From NCBI RefSeq assembly GCF_003014555.1, contig NZ_PYGE01000024.1, positions 1 to 64,000 of the forward strand: a stretch of 64,000 nt of DNA. Direction: 5' to 3'. Numbering within the stretch: the stretch's first letter is position 1; each line of letters starts with the position of its first letter. Origin of the DNA: Haloactinopolyspora alba. Lineage in GTDB: Bacteria > Actinomycetota > Actinomycetes > Jiangellales > Jiangellaceae. The notes beneath the pieces are model-generated. The model saw nothing but the letters and a program-made list of their open reading frames with translations, was not told the origin of the DNA and did not search any database. Shown here one piece after another: positions 2,803 through 15,909 of this stretch. The position numbers and the translations under genes were made by a program.

Positions 2803-3671
2803 TTCATTCCGGTCATCGTGATGCTGTTGACCAGGTACCGCTGCAGCACGAAGAACACCAGGATGCACGGCACGACGCTGATGAACGCCGACGCCATCAG
2901 CTCGGGTGTCGACACGTTCGCCGAGCGCAGGCTCGCCAGCCCGACGGTCAGGGTGCGCATGTCGTCGGACTGCGCGATCACCAGCGGCCACAGGAAGTCG
3001 TTCCAGTGCCACAGGAAGACGAAGATGCCGAGCGTCGCGAGGATCGGTTTCGTCAGCGGGAGCACGACCTGGAAGAACACCCGCCATTCCGGCGCGCCGT
3101 CGACCTTCGCCGCGTCGAACAGCTCGTCCGGCAGGTCCCGGATGAACTGGCGCATCAGGAACACCGCCTGCGCGTTCGCCAACGTCGGCACGATCAGTCC
3201 CCAGTAGGTGTCGACCCCGCCCATGTTCGAGATCATGACGAAGTACGGGATCAGCATCGCCTGGACCGGCACCATCAGGGTGGCCACGAACGACCACAGC
3301 AGCGCCTCCCGGCCCGGGAATCGCTTGCGCGAGAGCGCGTAGCCGGCCATCGCCGCGGTCAGCAGCACGATGACCACCGACACCACGGAGTAGATCACCG
3401 TGTTCGTCGTCCACCGGACGAAGCCCGAGGCCTGGAACATCCTGGTGATGTTGTCCAGCGTGAAGCTGTCCGGGAACTGTTCCGGCAGCCCGACCGCGTT
3501 GGACGGCGTCAGCGCCAGCAGGATCATGAAGAAGAACGGGAGCACCGTGATCAGCGACACCACGGCCAGCAGTGCGGTCAGCGGCCAGCTCTGGCCGTTG
3601 CCGCGCCGGCCCTTGGCGCGCCCGGCCGGTGCCGTGGTGGACTCCGGCGCTGTCGTCATCGTCGCGGTCAT
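2799..3671 (-). CDS. Carbohydrate ABC transporter permease (MalG-like)
   Basis: This 290-residue inner-membrane protein has a Thr/Ala-rich cytoplasmic N-terminus and six predicted membrane segments starting near residue 33. A typical EAA loop lies at about 192-211, where AAKVDGAPEWRVFF is readable. It would form half of the channel, and its EAA loop should contact the ATPase. The ATG at 3671 lies in an ATGA overlap with the other permease. The operon encodes no ATPase; many actinobacteria use a shared MsiK-type ATPase instead, which is inferred here. Confidence 0.92.
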   Translation of the reverse strand: MTATMTTAPESTTAPAGRAKGRRGNGQSWPLTALLAVVSLITVLPFFFMILLALTPSNAVGLPEQFPDSFTLDNITRMFQASGFVRWTTNTVIYSVVSVVIVLLTAAMAGYALSRKRFPGREALLWSFVATLMVPVQAMLIPYFVMISNMGGVDTYWGLIVPTLANAQAVFLMRQFIRDLPDELFDAAKVDGAPEWRVFFQVVLPLTKPILATLGIFVFLWHWNDFLWPLVIAQSDDMRTLTVGLASLRSANVSTPELMASAFISVVPCILVFFVLQRYLVNSITMTGMK

Positions 3672-4582
3672 GCGTCGGACTCCCGGTCGAGGAAGCGTCG
3701 TTGGATCAGCGAGATCACCAGGATGATCAGGAACAGCGCGACGCCCAGGGTGGCGGCGTAGCCGAAGTCGAAGAACTGGAAGCCCTGGTCGTACAGCGCG
3801 TAGACGAGCGTGTAGCTGGCCCGGGTGGGCCCGCCTCCGGTCATCACGTAGATGGTGTCGAACACCTGGAAGGCCGCGATCGTCTCGATGACGACGACGA
3901 AGAACATCACCGGTCGCAGCAGCGGCAGCACGATCATCCGGAAGCGCTGCCAGGCGTTCGCACCGTCGACGCGCGCCGCCTCCAGGTACGAGGTGGGGAT
4001 GCTCTTCAGCCCGGCGAACAGGATGAGCATCGAGTAGCCGAAGCCCTTCCAGGACGACACGACGGCCAGTGACGGCAGCACGAGGGACGTCTCCTGCAGG
4101 AAGCCCACCGGGCCGGTGCCGAGCCACCCGAGGATGCTGTTGATCATGCCGTCGATCTCGTACATCCAGCGCCAGATCAGGCCGGCGAGGACGAAGCTCG
4201 TGACGTAGGGCAGGAACAGCGCACCGCGGAACACCGCCCTGCCCCACAACACCGAGTTCAGCAGCATCGCCGTCGCCAGCGCGACGATCACGGTCATCGG
4301 CACGTAGATCGCCGCGTACAGCAGCGTCGTCCAGAGGCTGTCCAGGAACACCTGGTCGGAGAACATCCGGGAGTAGTTCTCCGCGCCGATGACGTCCCAG
4401 CTGCCGCCGATCTTGTAGTTCGTGAAGCTCAACCCGACGGATCCGAAAACCGGCAGGAACCGGAACAGGATGAACAGGGTCAGCATCGGCAGCAGGAAGA
4501 TCAGCGCGCTGATCGGATCATGGAACCGCTGGCGCCACGATGCGTGTGTGCGCCTGCGATCCGTTCTGACCTGGTCGGTCAT
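3668..4582 (-). CDS. Carbohydrate ABC transporter permease (MalF-like)
   Basis: This 304-residue permease has a charged N-terminus and several hydrophobic segments from about residue 29. The family EAA motif is visible as EAARVDGANAWQRFR in the C-terminal third. It pairs with the downstream MalG-like permease and lies 51 bases after the binding-protein gene. Length and layout match the sugar-uptake (CUT1) class. The ligand cannot be derived from the permease. Confidence 0.92.
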   Translation of the reverse strand: MTDQVRTDRRRTHASWRQRFHDPISALIFLLPMLTLFILFRFLPVFGSVGLSFTNYKIGGSWDVIGAENYSRMFSDQVFLDSLWTTLLYAAIYVPMTVIVALATAMLLNSVLWGRAVFRGALFLPYVTSFVLAGLIWRWMYEIDGMINSILGWLGTGPVGFLQETSLVLPSLAVVSSWKGFGYSMLILFAGLKSIPTSYLEAARVDGANAWQRFRMIVLPLLRPVMFFVVVIETIAAFQVFDTIYVMTGGGPTRASYTLVYALYDQGFQFFDFGYAATLGVALFLIILVISLIQRRFLDRESDA

Positions 4583-4633
4583 CGAAGCGGAGCCCTTCCG
4601 GACGGCTTGTCGGGGTTACGGCAGATCGTGCGG

Positions 4634-5896
4634 TCAGGACCCGCCACTGGACAGTAGCGCGTTGGCCTCCTCCGCGGCGGCGGTCAGCGCTTCCTCGGCG
4701 GTGGCGTTGCCGAGCAGCGCGGCCTGGATCTGCGACGCCAGGACGGCCATGACCTGCCGCGACATCGGGTGGATGGGCCCGGGGTTCGCGTACTCCAGCG
4801 CCGCGGAGAACGGCTCCACCAGCGGGCCCGCGTCCGGCACCTCGACCTCGTTGCTCGGCGGGAAGAACCCGGACTCGGCGGCCAGCCCGGCGAGTACGTC
4901 CGGCTGGAGCATGTAGTTCAGGAACGCCTTGGCGCCGTCGTTGTCCTTCGCCTTCTCCGCGAGCGTGAGTGGGCCGGGGATGCCGAAGACCGCCTTGCCG
5001 CCTGGTCCCTCGATCGGTTCACCGACGGTGATCTTGTCGGGGCCGACCGCCTCGGCGATCCGATTCGTCATGGTGAGGTCGGCGAAGTGCGTCATCGCCG
5101 CGTCGGACGTGGCCATGGCCCGGTTCTCGAAGCTGCTGCCGACGGTGGGAGCGTCCGCCGTGAGCCCGCCCGCGGCCTGCAGGTCGAGGAGGAACTGCAG
5201 CGCCTCGACACCCTCGGGGCTGTCGAAGGCCACCTCGCTGCCGTCGTCGCTGAAGACCTGTCCGCCGGCCTGCCAGAGCAGTGGGTAGAACGTCAGGTTC
5301 AGCGACTCCTCCGGGCCACCGAAGTAGTCGTAGATCGCGACGTCGTTCGCCGCAAGCTTCGGCGCGGCCTCGAGGATCGCGTCCCATGTCTGGGGCATCT
5401 CGTTGATGCCCGCCTGCTCGAACAGCGCGGTGTTGTAGATCGGCGCGTTCACCGTCTGGTAGATCGGCACGCCGTAGACCTCGTCGTTGACGGTCATGGC
5501 CTCGACGGCGTTGGGCAGCAGCTTGGTGGGGCTGTTCTCGACGATGTCGCCGACCGGTGTCAACGTGCCCTGTTCGACGTACTGCGGGATCATGTCCGGC
5601 ACGAGCAGGACCACGTCGGGGCCGGTGCCCGAAGCCAGGGCGGTCGTGATCTTCTCCTGCCGGCCCTCCCATGGCAGCAGCTCGACCTTGAGGTCGACAC
5701 CGTCGTTCTTCGACTCGAAGTCGGTCTCGATGCCCTTCCAGTACTCGGCGCTCGCCTGCTCGTCGGCGATGACCGGATACATCCACAACGTCACGGAGCT
5801 GCCGTCGGACGACGTGCCGTCACCTGACCCGCCACACGCCGCCAGCACCAGCGCGCCGCCGGCTGTCGCAGCGACGGCTACACCTCGAAGTCGCAC
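4634..5896 (-). CDS. Extracellular solute-binding lipoprotein of a sugar ABC importer
   Basis: This 420-residue protein starts with a basic N-region and hydrophobic core ending in LVLAAC, so Cys21 should be lipidated after signal peptidase II cleavage. The rest is a type-1 (maltose-binding-like) solute-binding protein, with WEGRQEKITTALASGTGPDV and a C-terminal ladder of helices typical of the family. It would capture the substrate outside the membrane and hand it to the two permeases. The GTG start at 5896 has a strong AGGAGGGG site upstream. It is the first gene of the operon. Confidence 0.92.
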   Translation of the reverse strand: MRLRGVAVAATAGGALVLAACGGSGDGTSSDGSSVTLWMYPVIADEQASAEYWKGIETDFESKNDGVDLKVELLPWEGRQEKITTALASGTGPDVVLLVPDMIPQYVEQGTLTPVGDIVENSPTKLLPNAVEAMTVNDEVYGVPIYQTVNAPIYNTALFEQAGINEMPQTWDAILEAAPKLAANDVAIYDYFGGPEESLNLTFYPLLWQAGGQVFSDDGSEVAFDSPEGVEALQFLLDLQAAGGLTADAPTVGSSFENRAMATSDAAMTHFADLTMTNRIAEAVGPDKITVGEPIEGPGGKAVFGIPGPLTLAEKAKDNDGAKAFLNYMLQPDVLAGLAAESGFFPPSNEVEVPDAGPLVEPFSAALEYANPGPIHPMSRQVMAVLASQIQAALLGNATAEEALTAAAEEANALLSSGGS

Positions 5897-11225: not shown

Positions 11226-12782
11226 TTACGCGGGCGGCTCGAACAGTGCCTGCTGCACCGGTGGCGACGCGCGCGCCCCGGCTTCGGTCCCGTCGGGCGC
11301 ATCCGGCGTACCGGTGGCGTGCCGCCGCTCGGCCGGACGGTCCACACCGTGCCGGCGCAGCAACGGTGCGGTGCGCTGCTGCAGCCAGGTGCGGTACCGC
11401 CGGTGCGCGTAGGCGCCGGTGCCGTAGAGGCGATGGTACCGGGCGACGAGGTCGGGGTACTGGGCTTCGAGCCAGCGCAGGTACCACTCGCGCGCGCCGG
11501 CGCGCAGGTGCAGCGGGATGACCGTGACGTCGCCGGCGCCGGCCTCGGCGACCGCGCCGATCAACGAATCCAGTTGTTCGACCGAGTCGGTGAGCCCCGG
11601 CAGCACCGGCGCCACGAGAACATTGCAGGGCAGGCCGGCGTCACGGATGGCACGGATCATGTCGAGGCGTGCCCGCGGCGTCGGTGTTCCAGGCTCGACG
11701 GACCGGTGCAGACCGTCGTCCAGCATCGCCAGCGACACACCGACGCCGACCTCGACCGAACCCGCCGCAGCCGCCAGCTTCGGGAGGTCCCGGCGCAGCA
11801 GCGTCCCCTTCGTGAGCACGCTGAACGGAGTGCCGGAACCGGCGAGCGCGTCGATGATGCCGGGCATCAGCCGATAGCGGCCCTCCGCCCGCTGATACGG
11901 GTCGGTGTTGGTGCCCATGGCGACGTGCTCACGCGTCCAGGAGCTCTTCGCGACCTCGTTCCTGACGACCTCGGCGATGTTGGTCTTGACCACGACCTGC
12001 CGGTCGAAGTCGTCTCCGCTGTCGAGGTCGAGGTAGGTGTGTGTGCCGCGGGCGAAGCAGTTGTGACTGACCACCCCGTCGGCGACGAAGTCGCCGGTGC
12101 CGGTGGTGATGTCGTACATCGGCATCAGCGTGCCCAGCTCCTGCACGGACCGCACCCGAAGCCCCGGGGACGTGTCGACACTCACCCGTGTCTGCGCCCC
12201 GGCCCGCAGTCCGTCGTCGCCGACCTCGGGTGGGGCGCCGGCCGCCCCGAACCCCATCAACTGGTCGCCGTCGACCAGATGCGCGCGTCGTAGCGCCCGG
12301 CCGGATGCGGTGACGTGTTGCCAACCCCGGGTCGTCAGGAACCGGTGATCGCCGCTGGCGGTCAGGGTGGTCCCGTCGGCGAGCGAGAGCCGGACAGCGG
12401 GCTTGCGGGTCTCCCAGTGGTCGAGCACCACGGTGACGACGTAACGGCGCCGCCCGCCGGCGGCGCGGGTGCCGATGATCCGGTCGCCGACCCGCAACCG
12501 CGCCAGCGGGCGCTGCCGCCCGTCGCTCATGAGCACCGGCGTGTCGCCGGCGAGGCAGTAGGTGCACGCGTGACTGCACCCCCGGTACGGGTTGATGGTC
12601 CACCGGAACGGCACCCGCGCTGCCGCGGGCACCCGGTTCAACGCCGAGCGGCACATGACCTCGTGGAAGGTGATGCCCTCGAACTGCGGAGTCTGCACGC
12701 TGCGCACCAGCCCGGCCATGCGCTGCAACCCGGGCAGCGCTTGGCCGTCCGACGTGCTGACCCCCCGGGACTCCCAACGCAT
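11226..12782 (-). CDS. Intein-containing radical SAM protein of the Rv2578c family
   Basis: This 518-residue precursor is a radical SAM enzyme interrupted by a 166-residue mini-intein. The extein (352 residues) has the family N-terminus QFEGITFHEV and the CxxxCxxC cluster motif: C69 and C73 precede the intein, and the third Cys (C242) is the first residue after it. Later segments GTNTDPYQRAEGRYRLMPGI and PVLPGLTDS are typical of the family. It should bind [4Fe-4S] and SAM only after splicing. Its function is unknown. The family is often adjacent to hisS, as here. The start is ATG 12782 (MRWES); ATG 12800 is an alternative. Confidence 0.9.
   Translation of the reverse strand: MRWESRGVSTSDGQALPGLQRMAGLVRSVQTPQFEGITFHEVMCRSALNRVPAAARVPFRWTINPYRGCSHACTYCLAGDTPVLMSDGRQRPLARLRVGDRIIGTRAAGGRRRYVVTVVLDHWETRKPAVRLSLADGTTLTASGDHRFLTTRGWQHVTASGRALRRAHLVDGDQLMGFGAAGAPPEVGDDGLRAGAQTRVSVDTSPGLRVRSVQELGTLMPMYDITTGTGDFVADGVVSHNCFARGTHTYLDLDSGDDFDRQVVVKTNIAEVVRNEVAKSSWTREHVAMGTNTDPYQRAEGRYRLMPGIIDALAGSGTPFSVLTKGTLLRRDLPKLAAAAGSVEVGVGVSLAMLDDGLHRSVEPGTPTPRARLDMIRAIRDAGLPCNVLVAPVLPGLTDSVEQLDSLIGAVAEAGAGDVTVIPLHLRAGAREWYLRWLEAQYPDLVARYHRLYGTGAYAHRRYRTWLQQRTAPLLRRHGVDRPAERRHATGTPDAPDGTEAGARASPPVQQALFEPPA
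12060..12557 (-). other. Mini-intein inserted in the radical SAM motif
   Basis: The inserted 166 residues begin with Cys (CLAGDTPVL, block A) and end with His-Asn before a Cys +1 residue (VVSHN|C, block G). Block B carries SGDH, an SxxH variant of the usual TxxH, and block F reads MYDITTGTGDF. There is no homing-endonuclease domain, so it is a Hint-only mini-intein. All nucleophiles needed for class 1 splicing (C1, N-terminal His, penultimate His, Asn, Cys+1) are present. Removing it restores the CxxxCxxC motif exactly. Confidence 0.93.
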
Positions 12783-12882
12783 GACCACATTCGAACACAC
12801 GTTCGCCCACGTGGCAACCCGACCGGCGGCCGCACGGCGCCCTCAGCGGCGGTCGTACTGCGCAATATCGGGCCGCGTCACC

Positions 12883-12951: not shown

Positions 12952-14220
12952 TCACGACGAGGTGGCGGTGATGAGGTGCGAGCGGACGTCGCCGAGAGCG
13001 ACGGGCTCCTGTTCACCGGAGCGCAGGTCCTTGACCTGGGCCACGCCGTCGGCCAGATCGCGCTCGCCGACGACGACCGCATACCGGGCGCCGCTGCGGT
13101 CGGCGGCCTTCATCGCGCCCTTGAGTCCGCGCCCGCCGGTCGCCACGTCGGCGGCGACCCCGGCACGGCGGAGCTCGGTCACCAGCCCGAACGCGTGCCG
13201 CTCGGCGTCGTCGCCCAGCGGCACGAGGTACACGTCGACGCCGGGGGTGCCGGGCAGCGGCAACCCCTCGGCCTCCATGGCCAGCAGTGTGCGCTCCGCG
13301 CCGAGGGCCCAGCCGACGCTGGGCAGCCGCGGCCCGCCGAGCAGCTCGGACAGGCCGTCGTAGCGGCCGCCGCCGCCGACCGCGGACTGCGAGCCGAGCC
13401 CGTCGTGGACGAACTCGAACAGCGTGCGGGTGTAGTAGTCGAGCCCGCGGACCAGGCGTGGATCGTCGTCGTACGGCACACCCGCGTCGGTCAGCAGCCG
13501 GCGCACCCGATCGTGGTGGGCACGGTCACCGTCCGACAGGAAGTCCGTGACCAGGGGCGCGTCCGCCAGCGCCTTCTGCACGTCGGGACGCTTGTCGTCC
13601 AGTACCCGTAACGGGTTGATCTCGACCCGGCTCGCGGTGTCCTCGTCGAGATCGAGGCCGCGCAGGAACTGCTGCAACGCGTCGCGGTAGGCGGGGCGGG
13701 ACTCGCTGGAACCGAGCGAGTTGATCAGCACCCGAACCTCCGTGAGCCCCAGCGCGCGGTACGCGTCCATGGCCAGCACGATCAGCTCGGCGTCGACCGC
13801 CGGGTCCTCGGTGCCGAGCACCTCCGCGCCGACCTGCGAGAAGTGCCGGAAGCGGCCCTTCTGCGGACGCTCGTAGCGATAGTACGAGCCCCCGTACCAC
13901 AGCTTCACCGGCAGCGCGCCGCGGTGCAGCCCGTTCTCGAGGGCGGCGCGCAGCACCGGCGCCGTCCCCTCGGGGCGCAGCGAGACGTCGTCGCCGCCGC
14001 GCGTGGTGAACGAGTACATCTCCTTGGTGACGATGTCGGTCGACTCGCCGACGCCCCGGGCGAACAGGCCCGTCTCCTCGAAGCTCGGCGTCTCGACGTA
14101 GCCGTACCCGGCCCGGCGGACCGGACCGGCCATCGCGTCGCGCACCGCCAGGACCGCCTCTCCCCGCGGCGGGACGAGGTCGAACGTGCCTTTCGGGGCG
14201 CGGAACGTCGGTTGATTCAC
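12952..14220 (-). CDS. hisS: Histidine--tRNA ligase
   Basis: This 422-residue class II synthetase shows motif 2 in [16 protein letters not shown], the histidine-binding segment [14 protein letters not shown], and motif 3 [15 protein letters not shown]. The C-terminal ~95 residues form the anticodon-binding domain. It charges tRNA-His in the cytoplasm. The GTG at 14220 gives the usual N-terminus ([13 protein letters not shown]). The open frame extends upstream through the neighbouring gene and that part is not coding. It lies 28 bases after the metallo-hydrolase gene and is probably co-transcribed with it. Confidence 0.97.
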
Positions 14221-14248
14221 TGGTTCATCCCATTGACCGGACCGGTCG

Positions 14249-14941
14249 TCACGGCCCGAGTTGTCGAAGGTACGGGTTGGTGGTGCGCTCCTGGCCGAGG
14301 GTCGACGACTCGCCGTGGCCGGGCAGCACCGTGGTCGCGTCCGCGAGCCCGCCGTCGGCCTCCGGCCGGGCGAGCTCGCCGAGCGTATGTCGCATCCGCT
14401 CGTCGTCGCCGCCCGGCAGGTCGGTGCGGCCGATCGTGCCGGCGAACAGCACGTCCCCGGTGAAGCACATCGATCCGTCGGAGCCGTCCTGAGACGGGAC
14501 GTGGTACAGCGTCGACCCCTCGGTGTGCCCCGGAGAGTGCACCGGTTCGATCCGGATGCCGGCGAGCCACAACGGCGAGCCGTCGGAGAACGTCCGCACG
14601 TCTGGCGGCTCGACCCAGTCGTCGGCCAGGGCAGCCAGCATGGGCGCCAGATCCGGCCCGAGCGTGCCGATGGGGTCGGCGAGCCGGTAGGCGTCCGCCT
14701 CGTGCAGGTAGACCGGCAGGTCACGTCGCTGGCACAGCTGGGCCAGCGCGAACGTGTGATCGACGTGTCCGTGGGTGACCAGCGCCGCCACCGGTTCCAG
14801 CAAGTGCTCCGCGAGCAGGGCGTCGACCTGCTCGTCGACCGCGATGCCTGGATCGACGAGGACGCATTGACGGCCGCCGTCGGGTGCGAGCACATAGCAG
14901 TTGGTGCCCAGCACGGGTGCGGTCAGCGAGTGGAGGAGCAC
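14249..14941 (-). CDS. MBL-fold metallo-hydrolase (glyoxalase II-like)
   Basis: This 230-residue protein has the metallo-beta-lactamase signature THGHVDH (H57, H59, D61, H62), H139 in SPGHT, D163 in FTGD and H209 in LPGHG. These form a two-metal site like that of hydroxyacylglutathione hydrolases, which hydrolyse thioesters. Actinobacteria lack glutathione, so the substrate is probably another thioester. Its place beside hisS and the cyclophilin is the same in mycobacteria (the Rv2581c position). Confidence 0.9.
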
Positions 14942-15084
14942 TCGGTGAAGGGTACCGGCGCTGCATCATTGCCGCGAACTCGTTATCTGACAGCGGCGTT
15001 GTACTGCCTAGACTGTCCCCCCGTAGTACGTGTAGCGGGGGCGCCCGGACTCCCGCCCGTGGTCGTGGTTGGTTGGGAGGACCG

Positions 15085-15909
15085 GTGGCCGACAGCGCCA
15101 AGCGCCGGCGCGCACTGGAGCGGCAGCGACAGCAGCGACAGCAGGCCCGTCGGGCCGAACGTGCCGCCCGGAGGCGTCGAAACGCACTGCTCGGAGGGGC
15201 GCTCGCCCTGGTCGTCGTGGTCGTGGGTGCGACGCTGCTCGCGACGGGCGTGCTCGGCGGCGAGGACGAGACGACCGCGTCGACCGGCGACAACTCCCAG
15301 GAGGACACCGACCCCGCCAGCGCTTCCGGCGCGTGCGCGTACCGAGAGGCCGGCGAGCCGGCCGTACCGGACATCGGGCTGCCCCCGGAGCTGACCGGGA
15401 AGGCCCCCAAGGCGCGCACCGCGACCCTGACGCTGAACGGATCACCGGTGAAGGTGCAGCTCGAGTCCGCGGCGGCACCGTGCACGGTGCACTCGTTCGC
15501 GTTCCTGGCCGGGTCCGACTACTTCGACGGCACCGAGTGTCACCGGCTCACCACGTCGGACAGCCTGAAGGTCCTGCAGTGTGGCGACCCCACCGGCAGC
15601 GGCTCCGGCGGACCCGGCTACGAGTTCGACAACGAGAACACCGACGGCGCGTCCTATCCGGCGGGCACGGTCGCGATGGCGAACTCGGGCCCCGACACCA
15701 ACGGCAGCCAGTTCTTCCTGGTCTACGGCGACTCCGACCTGCCGCCGAAGTACACCGTGTTCGGGCACATCACCGACGGCCTCGACGTCGTCACCGGGAT
15801 CGCCGACGCGGGTACCGACAATGGAAGCGAAGACGGCGCGCCGGCCGAGCCGGTCACCCTGGACGACGTCACCACAGCCGCTGCGAACCTGGATGAGGAC
15901 TCACAGTGA
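15085..15909 (+). CDS. Membrane-anchored cyclophilin-type peptidyl-prolyl isomerase
   Basis: This 274-residue protein has a basic, coiled N-terminus rich in Arg and Gln, one membrane segment (about 33-54), an acidic linker and a C-terminal cyclophilin domain on the outside. The core is clear: CHRLTTS, VAMANSGPDTNGSQFF and YTVFGHITDG. It would catalyse proline isomerisation in exported proteins. The GTG at 15085 follows GGGAGG. Several usual active-site residues are changed (CHRLT instead of FHRVI), so activity may be modest. Its stop overlaps the next start. Confidence 0.9.
   Translation: MADSAKRRRALERQRQQRQQARRAERAARRRRNALLGGALALVVVVVGATLLATGVLGGEDETTASTGDNSQEDTDPASASGACAYREAGEPAVPDIGLPPELTGKAPKARTATLTLNGSPVKVQLESAAAPCTVHSFAFLAGSDYFDGTECHRLTTSDSLKVLQCGDPTGSGSGGPGYEFDNENTDGASYPAGTVAMANSGPDTNGSQFFLVYGDSDLPPKYTVFGHITDGLDVVTGIADAGTDNGSEDGAPAEPVTLDDVTTAAANLDEDSQ

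Follow-up and report, generated by a model that had tools for sequence, protein, structure and literature searches.

The gene for an Rv2578c-family radical SAM enzyme in the window (the whole 64,000-nucleotide stretch of Haloactinopolyspora alba DNA analysed here) carries a mini-intein lodged exactly between the second and third cysteines of its iron-sulfur motif, and the insertion is real, precisely placed and most readily interpreted as a homing intein that has degenerated. We consider it very probable that this intein descends from a homing family, has lost the endonuclease, splices by the class 1 route, is retained mainly by vertical inheritance and is sensitive to redox conditions as a by-product. 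A previous interpretation made from the letters alone (the sequence-only reading) had suggested redox- or metal-controlled splicing; that regulatory idea has precedent, but the distribution of the intein does not favour it. Although proteins of this kind are already catalogued, we establish here the identity and exact site of the window intein, and we add fidelity to one insertion site across the family (80/80 loci, the best 80 of 403 relatives), full-length forms at that same site, descent within the Jiangellaceae and the near-invariance of the SxxH block B.

The intein and its insertion site

The features on which the analysis rests are as follows.

11226..12800, minus strand: precursor open reading frame, 524 aa counted from GTG, an Rv2578c-family radical SAM enzyme with an in-frame intein
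12558..12782, minus strand: N-extein, ending CSHACTY and holding Cys-7 and Cys-3, the first and second motif cysteines (aligned with empty alleles)
12060..12557, minus strand: class 1 mini-intein, 166 aa, with Cys1, block B SGDH (68-71), block F Asp149, penultimate His165 and terminal Asn166; endonuclease absent
12159..12251, minus strand: linker, intein residues about 103-133, at the position of the LAGLIDADG domain in the full-length loci L025, L126, L131 and L120 (alignment with the 339-aa form)
11226..12059, minus strand: C-extein, beginning CFARG, with Cys+1 as third cluster cysteine and the remaining radical SAM barrel

Translation of 12060-12557 on the minus strand yields exactly 166 residues (CLAGDTPVLM...GVVSHN), with PYRGCSHACTY before them and CFARGTHTYL after, so that the position given by the sequence-only reading is exact to the base. 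The insertion point, CSHACTY^CFAR, lies between the second and third motif cysteines (CSHACTY^C1...N166^CFAR). Asn166 is followed directly by CFAR, which opens with the third motif cysteine, bearing out the claim that the last iron-sulfur cysteine is also the +1 nucleophile. The class 1 residue set is complete (C1, S68GDH71, D149, H165, N166 and C+1), with a block B, ASGDH, of the SxxH type. Cysteines of the precursor stand at positions -7, -3, 1 and +1, the first three of these being C75, C79 and C82; Cys-3 (residue 79) is thus the second iron-sulfur cysteine of the motif, and residue 82 is Cys1.

The absence of an endonuclease, also claimed earlier, agrees with the short length and with a domain search that found no LAGLIDADG match in the 166-aa window intein, the same-site 339-aa form having PF14528. 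Matches of the isolated intein to the Pfam Hint and Intein_splicing models were below threshold. The isolated intein, modelled with AlphaFold2 (pLDDT 94), matched NpuDnaB (4o1r, E 9e-9), Mtu RecA and gp41-1 in Foldseek (structure ids 4o1r, 2imz and 6qaz), and the modelled window intein has the Hint fold. Chance is not an issue as a source of the intein signature.

The host enzyme

The open reading frame at 11226-12800 (minus strand) scores 780.5 bits against NF038136, "intein-containing Rv2578c family radical SAM protein" (cut-off 700), and 523.7 bits against the intein-free model NF038135 (cut-off 430). The window protein is a member of NF038136 and differs from it in nothing essential; this model describes exactly such proteins, as the sequence-only reading had recognised in calling intein-bearing members known. 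Because the family consensus opens with MRW, the ATG at 12782 is likely to be the start codon in preference to the upstream GTG. In a fold search with a model of the whole precursor, there were matches to inteins, and the rest of the protein matched spore photoproduct lyase.

Upstream, at window positions 12952-15909, the neighbours resemble hisS, a metallo-beta-lactamase-fold hydrolase and a peptidyl-prolyl isomerase; aspS lies on the opposite side of the precursor gene from these hisS-like neighbours. This gene order resembles that of Rv2572c-Rv2582 in M. tuberculosis and fits orthology to Rv2578c. The MoaA-like gene of the same genome, a 332-aa frame, contains no intein. The genome has a large LAGLIDADG-like intein in the P-loop of its replicative helicase DnaB (L147, G000:C14:47090-47437, an 858-aa open frame; AVGK^ALALDTPLPTP ... 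PTHN^STLG), which looks like a class 3 intein from its sequence because its first residue is Ala.

A family of inteins at one cysteine codon

An intein alignment was used to scan named genomes of bacteria and archaea; 403 relatives were confirmed, and the 80 best among them were retained. In every one of these 80 the intein begins at the third-cysteine codon of a radical SAM motif, RGCxxxCx[YFW]^C. The 80 loci were gathered with intein-only patterns, and the site fidelity was therefore not built into their selection; among rows gathered later by script, selection on the motif may be a source of bias. Hosts among the best 80 of 403 span many actinobacterial orders and include single metagenome genomes of Myxococcota, Betaproteobacteria and Omnitrophota. 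Non-actinobacteria contribute hosts of the PA0069 type, a different radical SAM family (467 bits for Betaproteobacteria and 375 for Myxococcota, cut-off 360), and a viral contig (L120) has a 345-aa homologue at the third-cysteine codon of a radical SAM protein of yet another, unassigned type.

C1, H71, D149, H165 and N166 are invariant in the 91 unique inteins, 64 of which have no cysteine other than Cys1. The comparison of block B across genomes proposed by the sequence-only reading found SxxH to be near-invariant: the Ser is present in 92/94 inteins (89/91 unique ones plus three later ones), a count somewhat inflated because one of the two search patterns behind the locus collection included this Ser; the loci supplied by whole-genome protein searches were free of that selection. 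Gly replaces the Ser in two inteins (L007 and L079). Full-length same-site forms already have this Ser, whose side chain retains the hydroxyl of the Thr usual at this position. We rejected SxxH as a mark of special tuning or regulation, the motif being a near-invariant trait of the whole family.

Three loci showed peculiarities of their own. In L094 (Nonomuraea dietziae) the same-site intein retains an endonuclease remnant where the frame shifts, leaving the extein halves in two frames, through either decay or sequencing error. L086 (recorded as Bacillus sp. AZ43) groups inside Blastococcus/Geodermatophilaceae by both extein and intein, and L106 (recorded as Sphaerisporangium cinnabarinum) likewise groups inside Cellulosimicrobium; these two records are probably misnamed or contaminated.

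Probable origin by homing and loss of the endonuclease

Full-length alleles of 291-346 aa occupy the same codon. One of 339 aa (L025) contains a LAGLIDADG_3 domain (PF14528, E 1.3e-8), and further full-length forms are found at L108, L111, L126, L131 and L120. L025, L126, L131 and the viral L120 share with the window intein the codon, the splicing blocks and SxxH; they differ in being 339-346 aa long, with LAGLIDADG_3 found in L025, whereas the window copy is without such a domain. Because full-length LAGLIDADG forms hold its site, the window copy appears to be a former homing intein minus its endonuclease.

Inteins have apparently also moved between radical SAM families. The exteins of L096 (PA0069 family, 467 bits) and L025 are 36% identical, and their inteins are 66% identical; for the viral L120 the corresponding values are about 24% for the extein and up to 57% for the intein. 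Such disagreement between extein and intein histories is a signature of homing, and full-length LAGLIDADG alleles together with jumps between families would account for the shared insertion site. The site is uninterrupted in L139, an intein-free homologue of the L120 protein. The site is found in each of its three states around Microbacterium: full-length in L126, mini in L067 and L066, empty in L135. L126 and L067/L066 form one intein clade (99/95), and the empty L135 shares a genus code with L126; this represents the usual cycle of gain, endonuclease loss and intein loss.

The contig carrying L120 (IMG/VR contig 3300007775_000023, coordinates 2836-4830) is a possible vehicle between radical SAM families. 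A phage origin of the mini-intein itself was rejected, as no match was found among 50,697 phage records and L120 is not a near source. The virus Rctr197k (H22), annotated "radical SAM protein-like", proved irrelevant, its intein interrupting a helicase-like protein.

Descent in the Jiangellaceae

Within the Jiangellaceae, 17 of the 21 genomes that have the gene carry the intein: both genomes of the window's genus, 12/12 of Jiangella, one genome of another genus and 2/5 of Phytoactinopolyspora. One further genus has the gene without the intein. Outside the family, the intein was present in only 5 of the ~54 gene-bearing genomes of the class sample, three of them with full-length forms. A careful intein tree unites the window copy with that of its congener (98/94) and joins both with Jiangella (93/87); support for all Jiangellaceae inteins together is weak (41/76), as it is for the deeper branches. 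Separate acquisition by the window's genus and Jiangella, on which a quick tree was undecided, is not needed, given that the careful tree joins the two.

A simple counting method gave the Jiangella intein a dN/dS of 0.30, against 0.17 for its extein. The intein is thus constrained, evolves faster than its extein and is retained vertically, and across the Jiangellaceae its inheritance is mostly vertical. In the extein tree, L010 (with the intein) and L022 (without) are sisters (92), so a close relative gets by with an intein-free enzyme.

Splicing and the question of regulation

The homing target would be the third-cysteine codon of the CxxxCx(Y)C motif in SplB-like radical SAM enzymes. In the proposed route, an N-S acyl shift at Cys1, aided by Ser68 and His71 of block B, would be followed by transfer onto Cys+1, cyclisation of Asn166 aided by His165, and an S-N shift that would leave an unscarred CSHACTYCFAR. 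We infer from sequence that the window precursor splices: the class 1 residues are present and invariant, and splicing should therefore restore this motif, so that a [4Fe-4S] cluster can be assembled and SAM bound. Until then the enzyme is presumably inactive, in line with the impairment of SufB and RadA precursors before splicing (PMC8529194). With the endonuclease gone, spread of the intein would be over, and it would be kept mainly vertically, because its removal must be exact.

It is very unlikely that the insertion has instead decayed into a non-splicing form, such that the gene yields only dead precursor. Variability of the first intein residues in some relatives, and the frame break within the endonuclease region of the Nonomuraea relative L094, are consistent with decay. 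However, the window reading frame is intact with every catalytic position present, dN/dS of the Jiangella intein is below 1, and the extein is conserved on either side of the intein.

The sequence-only reading held that the enzyme cannot bind its cluster until splicing occurs. This is not certain, because Cys1 occupies the place of the third cysteine (C75, C79, C82) and the precursor thus still reads CxxxCxxC. The same Cys-7/Cys-3/Cys1 arrangement is common to all inteins of this family. If Cys1 were to serve the precursor as a ligand for iron or an iron-sulfur cluster, holding splicing until the metal was lost or moved, splicing would read out iron-sulfur status directly, a scheme that strikes us as highly improbable.

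The window intein would probably splice more slowly in the presence of oxidants, nitric oxide or zinc, like other Cys1 inteins, because Cys-7, Cys-3, Cys1 and Cys+1 lie together. Oxidative arrest is chemically plausible, given that Cys-3 is the second cluster cysteine and that there are two disulfide precedents: in P. abyssi MoaA, a disulfide between Cys-3 and Cys1 is reported to prevent the intein from splicing and to place it under redox control (reviewed in PMC3922620 and PMC10663303), and for Mtu SufB a Cys1/Cys+1 disulfide and oxidation-sensitive splicing are reported (PMC8529194). We think it unlikely, though not negligibly so, that such chemistry serves as an adaptive switch, in which oxidised, nitrosylated or zinc-bound Cys1, Cys-3 or Cys+1 would keep the enzyme as a protected precursor until reducing conditions, as has been proposed for P. 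abyssi MoaA. In addition to these precedents and the four precursor cysteines, the switch draws support from a fold match to 3nzm, a DnaE intein "with N-extein in redox trap", and from retention of the intein in every Jiangella genome; indeed, a useful regulatory role would likewise predict both purifying selection and retention of the intein.

What argues against a switch is that any intein inserted before the third radical SAM cysteine has both partner cysteines, and so the partners are not evidence of selection for sensing; Cys-3 and Cys+1 come with the motif. Most of the inteins have no cysteine beyond Cys1, so no sensor residue has been added, SxxH is not special, and not every class 1 intein shows redox inhibition (PMC6195587). 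The gene also lacks the intein in the sister of L010 and in three of five Phytoactinopolyspora genomes, and few gene-bearing genomes outside the Jiangellaceae carry it. We concluded that sensitivity to redox or metals most likely just comes with the insertion site and did not evolve as a switch, and that adaptive regulation is not favoured.

Comparison with known systems

The intein itself is ordinary; it is the setting that makes it testable whether inteins in iron-sulfur proteins are sensors or leftovers. Empty, full-length and mini forms of one site co-occur in related culturable soil actinobacteria, and in the host enzymes each splice-junction cysteine, the intein's own Cys1 excepted, is also a cluster ligand. 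A literature search found no papers on inteins in Rv2578c or in spore-photoproduct-lyase-like enzymes. The P. abyssi MoaA intein resembles the window intein in its radical SAM host and in the pairing of a Cys at -3 with a catalytic Cys1, and, judged by the reported spacing, the -3 position fits insertion before the third motif cysteine; it differs in coming from an archaeal hyperthermophile and another radical SAM family, and redox control was tested in MoaA. The Mtu SufB intein is likewise a class 1 intein with Cys1 and Cys+1 in an iron-sulfur protein (PMC8529194), but it is 359 aa long, has an endonuclease and interrupts an assembly factor (PMC8891592), outside any radical SAM motif.
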